A DNA stretch of 64,000 bases from Armatimonadota bacterium (GTDB lineage Bacteria; Armatimonadota; Zipacnadia; UBA1398; JAKPQA01): contig JAKPQA010000090.1 in the NCBI GenBank assembly GCA_029547025.1, positions 1 through 64,000 on the forward strand, read 5' to 3'. The position numbers and the translations under genes are program-made. Positions within the stretch are counted from its first letter, which is position 1, and each line of letters opens with the position of its first letter. Positions 17,823-25,345 of the stretch are shown in pieces. Under the pieces are notes generated by a model. The model saw nothing but the letters and a program-made list of their open reading frames with translations. It had not been told where the DNA came from and searched no databases.

Positions 17823-17894
17823 GTGGCGCCGAATAGCGTGTTGTCGGTTCTGGCTCTGCCGGCCGCTTCGCGCCGTTGTCTACCGTCCCGATAA
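17823..17894 (+). CDS. Possible 23-residue leader peptide
   Basis: A GTG start at 17823 has a perfect AGGAGG 7 bases upstream and encodes a 23-residue peptide (MAPNSVLSVLALPAASRR then CLPSR) ending at TAA. The stop lies 14 bases before the ATG of the large fusion gene, whose own ribosome site GGGAG lies in that short gap. I see this as a candidate leader peptide or translational-coupling ORF; it is not recognised by similarity. The remaining bases 17634-17822 show nothing else. Confidence 0.35.
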   Translation: MAPNSVLSVLALPAASRRCLPSR

Positions 17895-17908
17895 GGGTCT
17901 GGGAGTAC

Positions 17909-20900
17909 ATGGAACCCCTACAGATCCTGCGCCAGTTGCCTTTGTTCGCCGATGTGCCTGAACCGCTCCTCGAAGCCATTGCCAGAGGCGCGTCTTGGCG
18001 GCCGGTCGCGGCCGGTGAGGTGGTGGTTGAGGCCGGCGACCCCGGCGACGCGCTCTATGTGATCAACGACGGCACCGTGGAGATACTGGTGCGGACAGCC
18101 GACGGGATCGCGCCCACGCGCGTCGCCACACTCGGTCCCGGCGAGTGCTTCGGCGAGATGGCCCTGCTGACCGGCGAGCCGCGGTCGGCTACGGTGCGCG
18201 CGCTTACCGACACCACGCTGCTGCGAGTGGCTAGCGAGGACTTCAGCCGGCTGGTGGCCGACGTGTCGGTCTACCAGCGGCTGGTCACTCTCCTGTGCTC
18301 GCGCCTGCGCCGGACCGACGTGCAACTGGAGGAGGCCCAGTGGGCCCAGATGGCGCTCAGCCGGCACTTGCAAGGAGCGCACGCCCATGGCGACACCGAG
18401 ATCCATGGCTCGACGCCCGCCTCGCGAGCCTTGAGAGACGCGATCGAGGCGGCCGCAGCAGCCAGTGGCCCCGTTCTCCTCGAAGGGGAAGCCGGTTCTG
18501 GCAAGAGCCTGGCCGCGTCGCTCATCATCGCCAAGAGCGCCCGCGCCGATGGACCGGTCATCTCGATCGATTGCTCAGCGGCCGGTGTGGATGCCGCGTC
18601 CGAGATCTTCGGCCACGAGGCCGGGACGCTGCCCGGGGCCCGGGCGCGCCATCTCGGGGCACTGGAGCTCTGCGACAACGGCACGGTCATTATTGCGGAG
18701 CCGCATCGGTTGCCCACCATGGTGCAGGAGCGGCTGGTCGGCGCCCTGGAGCGGGGCGTGTTCCAGCGGATCGGGGGCGACGAGGAGCTCCCCCTGAACG
18801 CCCGAGTGATCGTCACCCGCCGGATGGAGCCATCGGCGGCGGTGCCCGCGGTGGACCCTGGCATCGAGGCCCTGTTCTCGGGTGGTCACATCCGCGTGCC
18901 TCCACTCCGCGACCGGCGTCGCGACATCCCGCAGCTGGCCGAGGCGCTCATCGAGCGGCACGCGCGGGATCTGCGGCGCCCCAAGCCAGAGCTCGATCCC
19001 GGTGCCATCGAGCGGCTGCTGAGCTACGAATGGCCGGGAAACGTCGAGGAACTCGATAGTGTTCTGCGACGGGCGGTGGCGCTGTTCGCCGATGATCGCA
19101 TCGAGGCCGATCACATACTGATTCACTTGCCGAGCATTAGCGAAGAGGGCCGGGTAGACCTGTTCCGCATCCCCTTCGTCGCCAAGTTTGTTGGCAGCAG
19201 ATGGTATCCCCTGGCCCTGCAGTTGCCGACGGCCGCGGTGCTGGCTCTCATCGTGTTCGAGTGCTTCTTCGGCCCGCAGACTGGGGAGAACATTGCGCTG
19301 ACCTTGACGTGGCCCATCTGGTGGGCGGCCCTGCCGCTGAGCTTCCTCTTCCTGGGCCGCATCTGGTGTACCATTTGTCCATTCTCGCTCCTCAGCTCGG
19401 TGGTGCAGCGGATCGGATGCCTGAACCTGCCGGTGCCGGCGTTCTTCCGCAAGACCGAGATCTGGCCCATGACCGCGCTGTTCGTGTTCCTGACGTGGGC
19501 GGACGAGTACTGGCATTATCCCGACAAGCCGATGTGGACCGGCGCCGTTCTCGGTTCGGTTCTGGCCGGCACGCTGCTGTTCAGCTTCCTGTTCGAGCGC
19601 CGGGTCTGGTGCCGCTACCTCTGCCCGTTAGGAGGCGTCAATGGCGTCTACTCGACGGCGGCTCTGGTGGAGCTGCGCGCGAACACCGACGTCTGCGCCT
19701 ACCACTGCCGCGCGCACGAATGTGTGTCGAAGGAGCCGGGCCGAGCCTGCCCCATGCTCGAGCGCCCGCTCGCGATGGACACGAACCGCAACTGCAACCT
19801 GTGCATGAACTGCGTGAAGCACTGCCCACATGGGGCGATCCACCTGTTCCTGAGGAGGCCCGGGGCCGAGATCTGGCAGATCCGCACGCCCATGTTGTCG
19901 GCCGGAGTGCTGTGTCTGCTCCTGACGGGTACCATGCTCACGCACGGGCTCTGCAAATACGTGGAGTCCCAGGGGAAGCACCTCATCGACGTGCCACCGG
20001 CCACGTGGCTCGGTTTCACGGCCCCGGCCCAGGAGGGCGCGGCCTGGACGGCAACGTACCTGGCGCTGCTGCTGCTGTCGGTCCTCGCCGGCTGCATCGC
20101 GAGCGCGGTGTCGTCGTCGCGGGAGCGGAAGCCGTGGTCGTCGAACCTGGCGCACTATGGCTTGGCCTTCTCGGTGCTGGCGGTGCTGTTTCACATCACG
20201 CTCGAGGGGGGCGAGCTGATGTCCGAGGGGATCCCCATGCTCCTGGGGCTCCTCGCGGGCTGGATCCACATCGCGCCGCCACCGGGTGGCTTCGACCTGT
20301 TCACTCCGTTCCTCGTGCGGGCCGCGCAGGTGGTGCTCGCTCTGGTGGCCACTGGACTCACAGCGGCAACGGTCGTCTACGTGGCTCGCCAGCGGAACGA
20401 TGGTCCGAGCCGGGCCGGCGCCGGCCCGCACGTGGCCCTGGCGCTGATCATGGGGCTCCTGTTCGTCGGTGCGCTGCTGAAGGCGCCCCTGCCGTCTCCC
20501 GCTCCGCCACCCGAAGAACGCAAGCAGGCGCTCGATGAGCCACCAGCAAGCCCGTCCGAACCGCAGGCGGCCGGAGGAGCGCTTGCGGGAGCTACCGAGG
20601 TCCCGCCAACACAGAAGGACGGGGGGCCGGCTGGCGAGTCGCGCGCGCTGGCTCCGTTGGCCGGGCCCTCCAAGGCCGCGCCGGCTGCTGCGTCCGTGCG
20701 TGGGGCCGAGGCGCCCCGGCCGTCGGCTTCGCCCAAAGCCGCTCCGGCCCCGGCGCCCCTCCCGAAAGCCGGTGGCGCGCGATCGGCGACATCGTTGGGC
20801 AGCGGCTCGAGTGCCGCCCCGAGCGTGAAACCAGCGGCCGAGTCGTCGCGGAGGCCCACTCCGGCCCCGGCGCGTAACGGCGGGGGAGTGCCCGCACCCC

Positions 20901-20965
20901 GCGGAGGAACCGTCCGCAGCGTGGGAGACGAAGCGGCGCTGGACCAGGTCATCCCCACTCAGTAG
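17909..20965 (+). CDS. Fusion: cyclic-nucleotide sensor, AAA+ sigma-54-activator-like domain, NapH/NosR-like membrane polyferredoxin
   Basis: This 1018-residue protein joins domains that are usually separate. Residues about 5-130 are a CRP-type cyclic-nucleotide-binding domain (GECFGEMALLTGEPRSATV, 79-97). Residues about 165-410 are an enhancer-binding AAA+ domain with Walker A GEAGSGKS (193-200), but the sigma-54 loop GAFTGA reads GTLPGA (239-244), the Walker B acid pair reads AE (263-264), and WPGNVEEL (375-382) is kept. From about 430 the protein is integral membrane, with CTICP (487-491), WCRYLCP (567-573) and a ferredoxin motif CxxCxxCxxxCP (629-640), as in NapH, NosR or CcoG, then further membrane helices. 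About 150 Pro/Ala-rich residues form the tail. No DNA-binding helix-turn-helix was found. I infer a membrane redox protein gated by nucleotide or ATP rather than a transcription factor. The ATG at 17909 has GGGAG close upstream. Confidence 0.85.
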   Translation: MEPLQILRQLPLFADVPEPLLEAIARGASWRPVAAGEVVVEAGDPGDALYVINDGTVEILVRTADGIAPTRVATLGPGECFGEMALLTGEPRSATVRALTDTTLLRVASEDFSRLVADVSVYQRLVTLLCSRLRRTDVQLEEAQWAQMALSRHLQGAHAHGDTEIHGSTPASRALRDAIEAAAAASGPVLLEGEAGSGKSLAASLIIAKSARADGPVISIDCSAAGVDAASEIFGHEAGTLPGARARHLGALELCDNGTVIIAEPHRLPTMVQERLVGALERGVFQRIGGDEELPLNARVIVTRRMEPSAAVPAVDPGIEALFSGGHIRVPPLRDRRRDIPQLAEALIERHARDLRRPKPELDPGAIERLLSYEWPGNVEELDSVLRRAVALFADDRIEADHILIHLPSISEEGRVDLFRIPFVAKFVGSRWYPLALQLPTAAVLALIVFECFFGPQTGENIALTLTWPIWWAALPLSFLFLGRIWCTICPFSLLSSVVQRIGCLNLPVPAFFRKTEIWPMTALFVFLTWADEYWHYPDKPMWTGAVLGSVLAGTLLFSFLFERRVWCRYLCPLGGVNGVYSTAALVELRANTDVCAYHCRAHECVSKEPGRACPMLERPLAMDTNRNCNLCMNCVKHCPHGAIHLFLRRPGAEIWQIRTPMLSAGVLCLLLTGTMLTHGLCKYVESQGKHLIDVPPATWLGFTAPAQEGAAWTATYLALLLLSVLAGCIASAVSSSRERKPWSSNLAHYGLAFSVLAVLFHITLEGGELMSEGIPMLLGLLAGWIHIAPPPGGFDLFTPFLVRAAQVVLALVATGLTAATVVYVARQRNDGPSRAGAGPHVALALIMGLLFVGALLKAPLPSPAPPPEERKQALDEPPASPSEPQAAGGALAGATEVPPTQKDGGPAGESRALAPLAGPSKAAPAAASVRGAEAPRPSASPKAAPAPAPLPKAGGARSATSLGSGSSAAPSVKPAAESSRRPTPAPARNGGGVPAPRGGTVRSVGDEAALDQVIPTQ

Positions 20966-21152: not shown

Positions 21153-22043
21153 CTACAGGCTCACGAGCATGCGCAGGTTCACCAGACATCGCCGGATGCA
21201 CTCGATGGGCGGATAGGCATAGCTCTCCTGCTCGACGATGAACCACTCCGTGCCGCCGGTGGTGCGGCAGACGCGGATGATGTCGCGCCAGGGGATGTTG
21301 CCCTCGCCCACGAGCGCCTCACCATTGGTGGGCGAAAACTCCTTCATATGCACCGTGAGTGCCCGCCCCGGGTACTTCTCGAGGAAAGGCAGAGCGCTGG
21401 CGCCACCGATCATGGCGTTGCCCGTATCGAACTGCATCACGACCCGCTGACGCGTGTTCCCGAAGAACGCATCCCACGGCAACGTGCCATCGGGGAACTT
21501 CTGGAACTCCATGGTGTGATTGTGGTAGCCGGTGTACATCCCCAGGGGCTGCAGCTTGGCCGCGATCTCGTTGAAGATCCCTGCGGTCCTCTCCCACGCG
21601 GCTTTGTCGGCCGTGTACTGGCCGCCCAGTCCCGGTACGATGAGAAACTTGTTCCCGATGGTCTTGTGGAACTCGATCGACTTCTCCAGCTCGTCGCCGA
21701 GCAGCGTCTCGAGGCCGACATGCGAACCCGCGACCCGGAGGCCGTTGTCGTCGAGCATGGTGCGGAGCTCTTGGGCCGATCGGCCGTAGTACCCCGCGAA
21801 CTCAACGCCCTCGTAGCCCATCTGGCTGACGGCCTTGAGGACGCCGGGCAGATCCTTGGCGCAGTCGTCGCGGACCGAGTAGAGCTGCACGGCGATGGGA
21901 ATGCGTCGGCGGCACCGAGTTGCGCATGGGCCGGCGGCGAGGACCTGCTTCGCAGCTCCCAGCAGCCCAATGCTGGTTCCCGCCACCAGCGCATCGCGCA
22001 GGAACGCCCGGCGCGTGCTTTGTGGCTGATCGTGATCGCCCAT
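21153..22043 (-). CDS. Tat-exported sugar phosphate isomerase/epimerase-like TIM-barrel protein
   Basis: This 296-residue protein has a twin-arginine signal (STRRAFLRDALVAGTSIG) and then an AP-endonuclease-2-type TIM barrel starting IPIAVQLYSVRDDCAKD. Metal and substrate residues of the family are visible: GVEFAGYYG, the YHNHTMEF motif, QFDTGNAM and EQESY near the C-terminus. Members isomerise or epimerise sugars or inositol derivatives. Export is unusual for such an enzyme and suggests action on periplasmic sugars. The ATG at 22043 is preferred, with GGGGGAG 8 bases upstream. It lies 43 bases downstream of a cytosolic paralogue with clear similarity throughout, so the pair is a tandem duplication. 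Confidence 0.88.
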   Translation of the reverse strand: MGDHDQPQSTRRAFLRDALVAGTSIGLLGAAKQVLAAGPCATRCRRRIPIAVQLYSVRDDCAKDLPGVLKAVSQMGYEGVEFAGYYGRSAQELRTMLDDNGLRVAGSHVGLETLLGDELEKSIEFHKTIGNKFLIVPGLGGQYTADKAAWERTAGIFNEIAAKLQPLGMYTGYHNHTMEFQKFPDGTLPWDAFFGNTRQRVVMQFDTGNAMIGGASALPFLEKYPGRALTVHMKEFSPTNGEALVGEGNIPWRDIIRVCRTTGGTEWFIVEQESYAYPPIECIRRCLVNLRMLVSL

Positions 22044-22086
22044 GGTTGTCACTCCCCCTACAGGCGCCGGGCCGGGGTCCGGCCCG

Positions 22087-22839
22087 CTACTTGCCCATTT
22101 TCCTCAGGTTCTCGAGGCACCTGGCCACGCACTCGAGCGGCGGGAAAGCATAGCTCTCCTGTTCCACAATGTACCACTCGGTGCCCCCGACGGTCTCGGC
22201 CAGTCTGAATGCCTCTTCCCATCGCACATCGCCCTCGCCGATGAGCGCCTGGTCGTTGGTGGCCGAGAACTCCTTGAGATGGAGCGTGGTGGAACGGCCC
22301 GGGTATTTCCCGATGTACGGCTCGGCGTGCGTGCCGCCATGAAGGGCATTGCCGAGGTCGAGCTGCATGATGACGTCGGCACAGGTGTTGCTGAAGAACA
22401 CGTCCCACGGGATCTCCCCGCCCACAGGTGTCCACTCGATGTGGTGGTTGTGGTACCCGGTCTTGAGCCCGTGGGGCTTCAGGTGCGCCGCGATCTCGTT
22501 GAACATGTCCGCCGTTCTGCGCCAGCCGTCGGCATCGGGGCGGTACTCCTCGGGGATCCACGGAACCACCGGGTACTTGCTGCCGAGCTCGAGGTGGAAG
22601 TCGATGGTCGCCTGCAGTTGGTCGCCCATAAGGGTGTCCATGCCCACGTGGGCACCCACGGGCACCAGACCCAGGTCACCGCAGATCTTCTTGAGCTCCT
22701 TGGCCGAGAGTCCGTGATAGCCAGCGAACTCGACGCCATCGTAGCCCATCTTGGCTACGGCCTCCAAACAGCCGGGGAAGTCCTTCGCGCAGTCATCGCG
22801 GATCGAGTAGAGCTGGAGAGCGATGGGGATTCTGGCCAT
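22087..22839 (-). CDS. Cytosolic sugar phosphate isomerase/epimerase-like TIM-barrel protein
   Basis: This 250-residue protein starts MARIPIALQLYSIRDDCAKD without a signal peptide, and aligns end to end with the exported neighbour: GVEFAGYHG, GYHNHHIEW, QLDLGNALHGG, LHLKEFSATND and EQESYAFPP. The metal-binding His, Asp and Glu positions of the family are kept. It may work on the same sugar as the exported copy, in the cytosol. The ATG at 22839 has GAGGAGG 6 bases upstream. A strong hairpin at 22874-22903 separates it from the upstream ArsM-like gene, so its own promoter or attenuation is possible. Confidence 0.88.
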   Translation of the reverse strand: MARIPIALQLYSIRDDCAKDFPGCLEAVAKMGYDGVEFAGYHGLSAKELKKICGDLGLVPVGAHVGMDTLMGDQLQATIDFHLELGSKYPVVPWIPEEYRPDADGWRRTADMFNEIAAHLKPHGLKTGYHNHHIEWTPVGGEIPWDVFFSNTCADVIMQLDLGNALHGGTHAEPYIGKYPGRSTTLHLKEFSATNDQALIGEGDVRWEEAFRLAETVGGTEWYIVEQESYAFPPLECVARCLENLRKMGK

Positions 22840-22999: not shown

Positions 23000-24235
23000 C
23001 TAGCGGCGAGCACCGTCTCGGCCACCGCCTGGCCCCTTGGTGACCGGGCACGCCGCCTGCCGGCCCGTTTTGGCCATGTGCTCCAGGGCCTCCTGCATCG
23101 AGATCCGGTAGACCTCGTACCGGCTGGCGTCCTCGAACACGGTGCGAGCTGTGCTCTCTGCCTCCTCGTAGCTCTCGAAGTAGCCGCGGTAGCGATGGGT
23201 CACGCGGGCTTGCCGGCGGACCCGGCCGTCGGGGGTCAGCCAGACGGCTCGAGCGGCATAGGCTTCTCCCGTAGCGCCGGCCGCTGGCGGCGGCACTGCC
23301 GCAGCCGACCTCGTGAGGCCCTTGGTCTCGGAGGGGCTTCGCGTGGACGGATGCGCCGGATCCCACAGCGGGGCCTGCTCATCGGGGACCTCCTCCGGAG
23401 GCTCCAGGTTGGCGAACATCCCCAGGTACGGCGGCCGCTGGTAGACGCCGAAGGTCTTCTTGCACACCGCGAAGCGCTGGCCACGGCGGATTACGTGGCC
23501 ATCGTCGTCTTCCACGACCTTGAACGGTCCGAGATAGACCACGGCCTGCAGACCATCGCGGCAAATACCCTCCTTGCCCTTGTGGGCCATGATCGCGATC
23601 CGGCGGCATTCGATGCCCTCGAAGACGGCGTCGGGCTCATCGGGCCAGTGCTCGATGGTCAGTCCGTGGAACTTGGCATCCTCCATGGCTGATAGGAGCT
23701 CGAGCTCCTGCATCACGGCCGGCATCGCGGGATCAGCGGCCAGGCGAGCGGGCAACGGTTCGTCGGACACCGCATCATACAGCACGCACGTGCCGCCCCG
23801 GCGCAGGACGCGGTAGAGCTCCTCGATGGCGTGTCGGCGCTCTGCCGGCGGGACACGCCCGAGCACACCTATCGCGATAACCGTATCGGCCGATTCGGCG
23901 GGGATGATCGGGTTCGCTTGGGCGTGCGCTCGAGCTTCCTCGATGACGTCACGCGCTTCGGCCAGGCTTCTGGGTGGCGTCGCCGCCAGTTGAGCCTCGG
24001 CCCGGACTACATCGGTGGAGAGATCACCCGGAGCCGCCCGGAACACCGTGGCCTTGCCGGCCAAGACGGCCGAGAGATGGCGCTCGGCCTCCGCCGTGCA
24101 TGCGGCGACGCGGACCGAACCCCGGGCCCCGGCGGCCTCGGCCGCGGCCAATGCGATGGGGGCAGGGTCATCGGCCAAGACGATGACATCGTCGCCGGCA
24201 CCAATCGTGTCGCGTGCCACCAGGCTCCAGCTCAC
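23000..24235 (-). CDS. ArsM-like SAM-dependent methyltransferase, N-terminally short with extra C-terminal domain
   Basis: This 411-residue protein resembles a subfamily of arsenite methyltransferases. The central part ADTVIAIGVLGRVPP then ELYRVLRRGG and DAVSDEPLPARL matches the post-I region. The second half has VVYLGPFKVVEDDDGH, RRGQRFAVC and a SETKG segment, as in the long C-terminal region of ArsM-like proteins of anaerobes. The SAM-binding motif I is reduced to DTIGAGDD at residues 9-16 and the usual N-terminal region before it is missing. The terminal Cys cluster expected after ETKG is replaced by about 100 residues of another domain. Function as a true arsenite methyltransferase is therefore uncertain. 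GTG 24235 overlaps the lipoyl-protein stop (GTGA). Confidence 0.72.
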   Translation of the reverse strand: MSWSLVARDTIGAGDDVIVLADDPAPIALAAAEAAGARGSVRVAACTAEAERHLSAVLAGKATVFRAAPGDLSTDVVRAEAQLAATPPRSLAEARDVIEEARAHAQANPIIPAESADTVIAIGVLGRVPPAERRHAIEELYRVLRRGGTCVLYDAVSDEPLPARLAADPAMPAVMQELELLSAMEDAKFHGLTIEHWPDEPDAVFEGIECRRIAIMAHKGKEGICRDGLQAVVYLGPFKVVEDDDGHVIRRGQRFAVCKKTFGVYQRPPYLGMFANLEPPEEVPDEQAPLWDPAHPSTRSPSETKGLTRSAAAVPPPAAGATGEAYAARAVWLTPDGRVRRQARVTHRYRGYFESYEEAESTARTVFEDASRYEVYRISMQEALEHMAKTGRQAACPVTKGPGGGRDGARR

Positions 24236-24489
24236 ACCGGTTCGCCTCCCGCGGCTTCGATGGTGCCCAACACTTGGCCGGGACTGATAGGCGTGTCCTC
24301 GGGCACGAGCACCTCTGCGAGCACACCGGCGCACGGGGCCTCCAGCGTGATCGTCGCCTTGTCCGTGTCATAGTCGAGTAGGTCGTCACCGGCTTCCACC
24401 CGGTCGCCGGCGCGCTTGTACCAATACCCGAGCACCGCCGTGCACTCCGTCTCGTGGTCGGGGGCTCGCACCTCGATGCGCTCTCCCAT
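24232..24489 (-). CDS. Free-standing lipoyl/biotinyl-domain protein
   Basis: This protein of about 85 residues is a single biotin/lipoyl-attachment domain. The hairpin DYDTDKATITLEAPCAG holds the modification lysine in the DTDKA context typical of lipoylated E2 domains, and LVPEDTPISPGQVLGTI closes the barrel. There is no catalytic or partner-binding domain. It sits between an aquaglyceroporin and an ArsM-like gene and overlaps the latter by GTGA, so they are surely co-translated. A lipoyl dithiol is a classical ligand of arsenite, which makes a thiol-donor or carrier role imaginable, but that is inference. The ATG at 24489 with GGAG 11 bases upstream is preferred; an in-frame GTG at 24540 would add 17 residues and overlap the aquaporin gene. 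Confidence 0.8.
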   Translation of the reverse strand: MGERIEVRAPDHETECTAVLGYWYKRAGDRVEAGDDLLDYDTDKATITLEAPCAGVLAEVLVPEDTPISPGQVLGTIEAAGGEPV

Positions 24490-24520
24490 GTCGAGCGTCA
24501 CTCCATTCGCGTGGTATGGG

Positions 24521-25345
24521 TCACTGGGCTTGGAGTCCACTCTCGGGCAGACCCGGCCGGATCAGGAGCTCATAGGCACCCGCCCCGACCATGGCTCTGA
24601 CGATGGGCGCGACGATGTAGACATCGAGAAACCCGCCCCCGGCGCCCGGTATGGCGATGGGACCCCACCCGAGGAAGTATGAGACGAGTCGAGGCCCGAA
24701 GTCACGAGCCGGGTTCAGGCCGGCCTGCGTGAGGGGAGCCACAATCGAGATCACGATCGAGACCGTCAGGCCGATGAACGTGGCCACGCTAGTACCCATC
24801 GGACGGCTAGGATTGCGGGTGTCCACCAAGGCGAAGATGAAGAAGGCCAGAAACGCGGTGCCGACCATCTCGCCAGCGAACGCCTGAAGACGAGAGACCG
24901 TGGCATAGGCTTCTGGCGTCGTGCCGGCCGTGGCCGGGTTCGGGAAGTACTCCCCGTACATCATGGCCGAGAGCTCACTGCCCGGGGCGCCGCGCGTGAT
25001 GCCCTTGTCGGATTCGTACTGGGCGATGAAGCCGCAGAAGAGGCTGTACAGCAGAAGGGCTCCCACGATGGCTCCCAGGAGCTGGGACGCCACAAAAGCG
25101 GGAACCTTGCGCCACGGAAAGCCTCGGTAGGCGGCCATGGCGATGCTGACGGCCGGGTTCATGTGGGCCCCGCTCAGGGCGCCCGTGGCGTAAGTGGCCA
25201 CCCCCCAGACCACGGCCACCTGCCAGACCCCTTACTGAGCGCCGCACGCGACGGCTGCATGGACGGACCCGACGCCGAAGAAGACAAGGATGAACGTGCC
25301 CAGAGCCTCGGCGATGCACTGCCGGGCCAAGCGGATCTCCCTCAT
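24521..25345 (-). pseudogene. Aquaglyceroporin (MIP/GlpF family) interrupted by an in-frame TAA
   Basis: From ATG 25345 the frame encodes a typical MIP first helix (RLARQCIAEALGTFILVFFG), reaches ACGAQ and then TAA at 25232-25234 (codon 38). The same frame continues without shift as GVWQVAVVWGVATYATG and the pore motifs SGAHMNPAVS and GLNPARD, to the stop at 24521; without the TAA it would be a normal 273-residue channel. Members conduct glycerol, water, and in AqpS-type cases arsenite. The stop removes helix 1 unless translation restarts at the GTG at 25219. It may be a recent nonsense mutation, a sequencing error, or readthrough. All else looks intact, so decay would be recent. It is the first gene of the lipoyl/ArsM-like cassette. 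Confidence 0.8.

Follow-up and report, generated by a model that had tools for sequence, protein, structure and literature searches.

ArsM and AS3MT are As(III) S-adenosylmethionine methyltransferases (NF040538, PRK11873). ArsE, ArsF, and ArsG act in organoarsenical resistance (PMC9144182). Other described parts of arsenic handling are AqpS, an aquaglyceroporin encoded in an ars operon of Sinorhizobium, ArsP, which exports organoarsenicals, and ArsD, an arsenic chaperone for which a role as a small thiol carrier of As(III), serving a transporter, has been proposed (PMC6205960). LbpA, a free lipoyl protein with extra cysteines, works in Hdr-like sulfur oxidation; among free lipoyl carriers that act outside the metabolism of 2-oxoacids and glycine, it is the only one we found described (PMC6067878). 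Within an incomplete coverage of the literature, no publication on an ArsM with a lipoyl partner was found.

The window, the whole stretch of 64,000 nucleotides analysed here, lies on contig C291 of the draft genome (6.3 Mb, 369 contigs) of an Armatimonadota bacterium. It carries on the minus strand a MIP-family frame, a lone lipoyl domain, and an ArsM-related protein, in this order (Table 1). With a probability of roughly 45%, we read the locus as a shortened and partly decayed form of an Armatimonadota gene module akin to arsenic-type (ars/arsEFG) operons, with a three-thiol carrier and a noncatalytic partner derived from ArsM. The original prediction had described a closely packed trio on one strand, and order, strand, and the true 4-nt GTGA overlap between the lipoyl stop and the GTG start of the ArsM-related gene (24232-24235) were all recovered. 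An overlap between the MIP and lipoyl genes, on the other hand, requires the lipoyl gene to start at GTG 24540. Considering that the start of the lipoyl homologues corresponds to ATG 24489, this codon is most likely the start of the lipoyl gene, and the junction would then be close without overlap, a gap of 31 nt separating it from the stop of the MIP frame. The cassette is followed directly downstream by two tandem IolE-like TIM-barrel proteins (21153-22052 and 22087-22839, minus strand), the first of them with a twin-arginine-like leader. Further along, a single plus-strand frame (17876-20965) is an unusual fusion of a regulator with a membrane redox part, in which a cyclic-nucleotide-binding domain and the AAA domain of a sigma-54 activator share one chain with a membrane polyferredoxin part (Fer4_5).

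Table 1: Features of the cassette, in positions of the window.
Feature	Position	Strand	Basis
MIP (aquaglyceroporin-type) channel frame, disrupted	24521..25345	-	PF00230 E 3.6e-34 on the intact part; NPA and NPARD motifs
Longest intact MIP ORF	24521-25219	-	Lacks the first helix
In-frame TAA, codon 38 of the MIP frame	25232..25234	-	Sense codon in 11/11 homologues
12-nt in-frame deletion (4 residues of TM2), junction inside the interval	25196..25201	-	Alignment with 11 homologues
Lipoyl-domain carrier	24232..24489	-	PF00364 E 1.2e-12; 85 aa from ATG 24489, 102 aa from GTG 24540
Extra cysteine C33, end of the beta1-beta2 loop	24442..24444	-	Invariant in 10/10 members
Lipoyl-lysine codon, K61 (102-aa numbering), DTDKA	24358..24360	-	Invariant in 10/10 members
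ArsM-derived protein, degenerate methyltransferase, 411 aa, GTG start	23000..24235	-	NF040538 E 5e-26; fold closest to ArsM
Degenerate N-terminal region without SAM motifs I and II	24029..24235	-	17% identity within the four relatives versus 63% among canonical proteins
Retained ArsM C-terminal domain (KGKEGxC, VEDDDGH, AVCKKT)	23309..23593	-	Identity of 56% among the four relatives and of 50% with canonical ArsM
Two conserved cysteines of the retained domain	23561-23563 and 23462-23464	-	
Extra small C-terminal domain	23066..23263	-	Model residues 326-391, mostly high pLDDT

The ArsM-related protein was compared with its homologues by scanning one genome per species in 84,980 species, with the alignment of four relatives as the query. 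Eighty loci were obtained, of which about 76 were canonical ArsM-like proteins from Planctomycetota, Myxococcota, Pseudomonadota, Acidobacteriota, cyanobacteria, and others. One of the loci (L070), with an ArsM of proteobacterial or planctomycete type, comes from an assembly that is probably mislabelled or contaminated, its contig bearing the title Bifidobacterium breve. The canonical relatives keep an N-terminal CC with YGCGDP, the SAM motif DLGSGGGK, GVDxN, SNCVLNLV, and LWSGCISG. This set was lost in the window protein and in three Armatimonadota relatives (L152/L013, L154/L014/L011, and L002/L080), with a trace of SAM motif I kept in L002/L080. The window protein has neither SAM-binding motif I nor II (DLGSGGGK, GVDxN), and the arsenic-binding and catalytic cysteines (N-terminal CC/YGCGDP, SNCV, and WSGC) are absent from it, the WSGC segment being deleted altogether. 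Among the 124 columns conserved in canonical ArsM, 60 were missing from three or all four of the degenerate relatives and 58 were kept, the latter mostly in the stretch that runs from mid-protein into the KGKxGxC..DDDGH..AVCxKT domain at the C-terminus. Against NF040538 the window protein scored 92 bits, below the family cut-off of 500 bits, and the canonical relatives tested, with 342 and 352 bits, likewise fell below it.

In descent and fold the protein belongs with ArsM. Among solved structures, ArsM came closest (E 4e-15) to the AlphaFold2 model of the window protein (pLDDT 87), and the match took in the C-terminal domain; canonical relatives were part of the input alignment, and the model is therefore not independent of canonical ArsM. 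The four degenerate proteins grouped on one side of a branch with an SH-aLRT of 99 and had long branches. The extra C-terminal domain is common to the window protein, L152, and L154/L011 and is absent from canonical ArsM, while the fourth relative (L002/L080) carries a glutaredoxin-like, Uxx-star-related domain; in L080 (7923-9125) the degenerate ArsM ends in this glutaredoxin/Uxx-star-like CxxC domain. The original prediction of an ArsM-like methyltransferase thus stands for ancestry and fold and fails for the motifs. Methylation by this protein is unlikely, because SAM motifs I and II and the arsenic cysteines typical of ArsM have gone. In all four genera, however, the frame has stayed long and open and the C-terminal domain conserved, which suggests that a function, presumably a nonmethylating one, has been kept.

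The lipoyl protein was modelled with lipoyl-type strands (pLDDT 83), and together with the Pfam match and the invariant lysine at the hairpin (DKA) this bears out the lone lipoyl domain that had been predicted. The domain resembled the E2 type best. When 291 genomes of the phylum were searched with a profile, a subfamily of 10 members was found, all with Cys33 and Lys61 and two of them fused to thioredoxin domains. A cysteine at the C33 position was found in 0 of 30 other lipoyl domains matched by the same profile and in 0 of 12 mostly small lipoyl proteins from a search of Planctomycetota. These last proteins (L184-L195), mostly small, free, and without the extra cysteine, are apparently another free-lipoyl family, some of them encoded near lipA, holB-like, and rny-like genes. 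Outside Armatimonadota, no member of the lipoyl-Cys subfamily was found in 284 genomes from the phylum to which G293 belongs, among the 12 loci that ranked above about 30 weaker hits in a 392-genome search around G292, or in 37 genomes carrying canonical ArsM loci. The matches in the 284- and 392-genome searches, taking the best 12 loci of the latter, were E2 enzymes or small lipoyl proteins lacking the cysteine. C33 was placed at the end of the beta1-beta2 loop from the alignment and the predicted strands. In known E2 lipoyl domains the end of this loop is close to the lipoyl-lysine turn, and by analogy with those folds C33 would lie near K61 in the window carrier. LipA and LplA/LipB-type genes are present in the genome, so that lipoylation is possible.

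The MIP frame has the two NPA motifs, MNPAVS and LNPARD, with the glycerol-type D after NPAR, and its nearest solved relatives were GlpF glycerol facilitators. The family assignment of the original prediction was therefore right, but the channel was not found as an intact six-helix frame, broken as it is by the TAA and by the deletion in TM2. When the frame was aligned with 11 homologues of the same phylum (those from the MIP search at E<=1e-20 being 53-67% identical), all 11 kept the four TM2 residues, which were missing in the window alone. Taking into account that the two lesions are separate, decay is likelier than a single sequencing error as the source of the stop, and the window MIP is probably a decaying gene or pseudogene. 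Selenocysteine read-through was ruled out, the codon being TAA and not TGA. No second MIP of the same type was found in this genome at E<=1e-20.

The neighbourhood of these genes was then compared across loci. The lipoyl gene adjoins the ArsM-related gene in all four degenerate relatives, which belong to four genera, all Armatimonadota, and it was beside canonical ArsM in none of about 76 loci, within the flanking DNA examined. This exact match between the degenerate ArsM set and the lipoyl neighbour is the strongest link in the finding. A MIP gene is directly upstream of the lipoyl gene in 4 of the 10 subfamily genomes (window, L136, L139, and L135, where the lipoyl domain comes after a fused thioredoxin domain). 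We estimated random MIP-lipoyl adjacency within 1 kb at about 4e-4 per genome, assuming one such MIP per 5-6 Mb; both adjacencies are more than chance. The window unites MIP, lipoyl, and ArsM-related genes and forms a bridge between the MIP-lipoyl and lipoyl-ArsM versions. The three-gene neighbourhood is therefore conserved in parts, while the exact cassette was seen at none of the other loci compared, and in the window it is damaged.

Other genes recur around the relatives' lipoyl loci. A DGC1-DGC2 pair is upstream of MIP in L135, L136, and L139, and the run DGC1-DGC2-MIP occurs without an adjoining lipoyl gene in L144, L145, and L147-L150. It was also possible to see DUF2180-type small zinc-finger-like proteins beside MIP and DGC genes in L168 (by Pfam) and in L147 and L150 (by eye). 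A NifS-type desulfurase was found at 6 of the 10 lipoyl loci (L137-L140, L152, and L154), and ThiF/ThiS near L137, L138, and L154. In L152 and L154 the ArsM-related gene is followed by one for an ArsP-family permease, which in L154 matches PF03773. For the L011 ArsP the closest permease models were those of SaoE and of a Cu/Zn exporter, neither of them an established arsenic pump. ArsE-family thioredoxin domains (TIGR00412) recur near the lipoyl genes. Regulators near these loci were of MerR, HTH-thioredoxin, or BlaI type, and no ArsR-type regulator was recognised beside the lipoyl genes at the loci examined. ModA-like binding proteins are encoded near the lipoyl genes in L136, L138, and L154, and in two of these proteins the N-terminal part looked thioredoxin-like by eye.

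Beside the window genes no regulator was recognised; the DGC pair, the desulfurase, and MerR are missing around the cassette, and ArsP-type permease, ArsE thioredoxin, and DGC, which appear in varied combinations at the relatives' loci, are absent. The same genome has on contig C1 (L167, 119000-130000) an operon with an SBF-family pump (ACR3-like), ArsR, ArsP, an ArsE-type thioredoxin, and DGC, which indicates that in the phylum ArsR can be found together with DGC, ArsE, and ArsP. This operon also holds thioredoxin and CcdA-like genes.

Gene order and residue conservation show a putative lipoyl-Cys carrier kept near MIP or ArsP-type permeases, DGC, ArsE-type thioredoxin, and NifS-type desulfurase, and kept, in four lineages, beside an ArsM-derived protein that to judge by its motifs has no SAM-binding or arsenic-methylation residues. 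On this basis the module might work as follows. The carrier would be lipoylated, and its dihydrolipoyl dithiol with the nearby cysteine would form a three-thiol site able to hold a trivalent metalloid; As(III) or an organoarsenical would be the likeliest, Sb or Se less so. The ArsM-derived protein would be no methylase but a partner for binding or docking, by means of the cysteine domain kept at its C-terminus, and it and the carrier together would replace methylation in the module. MIP or ArsP, alternating as the membrane step, would move the released species across the membrane. In the genome of the window, where the MIP partner is probably dead, efflux would rest on the separate, ordinary ars operon of contig C1. 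A more specific version, which would be a metalloid carrier system of a new kind, has a desulfurase supply sulfane sulfur beside the three-thiol carrier and the dead ArsM adaptor, with arsenic thiolated or passed to a channel but not methylated; it seems doubtful to us. Of the metalloid-handling system originally proposed, the neighbours fit metalloid and thiol chemistry, while methylation was not supported and the channel is probably a pseudogene here; the invariant extra cysteine strengthens the proposal that the substrate, bound to thiols, is presented on a lipoyl protein, a putative chemistry.

The ArsM ancestry, the aquaglyceroporin, the ArsP-family permease, the ArsE-family thioredoxins, and DGC suggest a metalloid as the putative substrate. 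The points against are the nearest models of the L011 ArsP, the lack of ArsR beside the lipoyl genes, the broken MIP, a C33-K61 proximity taken from known E2 folds, the trio having been found once, and the desulfurase, ThiF/ThiS, and ModA-like neighbours, which are atypical of ars operons. These last genes near the lipoyl loci keep sulfur or selenium trafficking as a serious rival, and it is the main one, even though we hold it to be rather unlikely. A NifS-type desulfurase would load persulfide sulfur or Se onto thioredoxins and an LbpA-like lipoyl-Cys carrier for delivery to ThiS/ThiF or another acceptor, the channel would pass small neutral sulfur species, and arsenic would be the ancestry of one part only. 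Such a role agrees with the desulfurase at six loci, with ThiF/ThiS at three, and with the precedent of LbpA and its extra cysteines (PMC6067878). It leaves ArsP, ArsE, DGC, and the ArsM ancestry without explanation, there is no desulfurase near the window cassette, and the lipoyl domain is E2-like whereas that of LbpA is GcvH-like. An Hdr-type LbpA identity was itself ruled out by the E2-type domain and by hdr genes being unrecognised at the lipoyl loci.

The damage in the window raises another reading, namely, that its whole operon is a decaying relic with no present function, whatever the module does elsewhere. The two lesions in the MIP frame and the missing DGC pair, desulfurase, and MerR agree with it, but the lipoyl and ArsM-derived frames are intact with their conserved residues kept, and we judge it improbable. 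An active ArsM methylating arsenite presented on the lipoyl dithiol, as first proposed, could invoke the ArsM descent and fold and the trace of SAM motif I in L002/L080; with SAM motifs I and II and every methylation cysteine of the family lost in the window protein, it is very improbable, and an active methyltransferase was rejected on the motif comparison with the roughly 76 canonical relatives. The glycerol-related alternative of the original prediction, or a chance grouping in which a glycerol facilitator happens to adjoin a central-metabolism lipoyl gene, is suggested by the GlpF-like MIP and the E2-like lipoyl domain. It found no support in the neighbour genes, since glycerol kinase, GlpD, and 2-oxoacid dehydrogenase genes were not recognised at the lipoyl loci examined, and, given that the MIP-lipoyl adjacency recurs and the extra cysteine is specific to the subfamily, we give it hardly any credit.

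The lipoyl-Cys subfamily with its pseudo-ArsM, a description of which was not found in our incomplete coverage of the literature, would seem to be a hitherto undescribed form of metalloid handling of the arsenic type, in a bacterial group that is poorly known. If this is true, the use of lipoic acid extends to metalloid handling, by way of a lipoyl carrier with a built-in third thiol, and a catalytic ArsM has been converted to a binding partner.

By comparison with the SAO (selenocysteine-assisted organometallic) and Uxx-star systems, the relatives share an ArsP-type permease nearest to SaoE, a weak SaoT match, and the Uxx-star-like domain of L002/L080, with matches that are all far below the family cut-offs. 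The likeness to arsEFG-type and ordinary ars operons is in the ArsE-family thioredoxin, DGC (a putative ArsF counterpart), and ArsP permease recurring near the lipoyl genes; unlike those operons, the lipoyl loci have a diverged DGC pair, a lipoyl carrier, a desulfurase, and MIP, and regulators of MerR/HTH-thioredoxin or BlaI type in place of ArsR. As with AqpS, the window-type MIP is grouped with metalloid-type genes, although arsC and arsR are not adjacent to it and its frame is broken. The carrier would be like the metallochaperone ArsD in its role as a small thiol carrier, and it would use a lipoyl dithiol and a cysteine in place of protein cysteines. With LbpA it has in common a free lipoyl carrier outside 2-oxoacid metabolism and an extra conserved cysteine; it differs in being of E2 and not GcvH type, in having one cysteine at another place, and in the absence of hdr genes. 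The ArsM-derived protein shares with ArsM/AS3MT common descent, the best PDB fold matches, and the C-terminal domain with its two cysteines, and departs from them in having lost the SAM motifs, the catalytic cysteines, and the WSGC segment and in having gained an extra C-terminal domain and a lipoyl partner gene.
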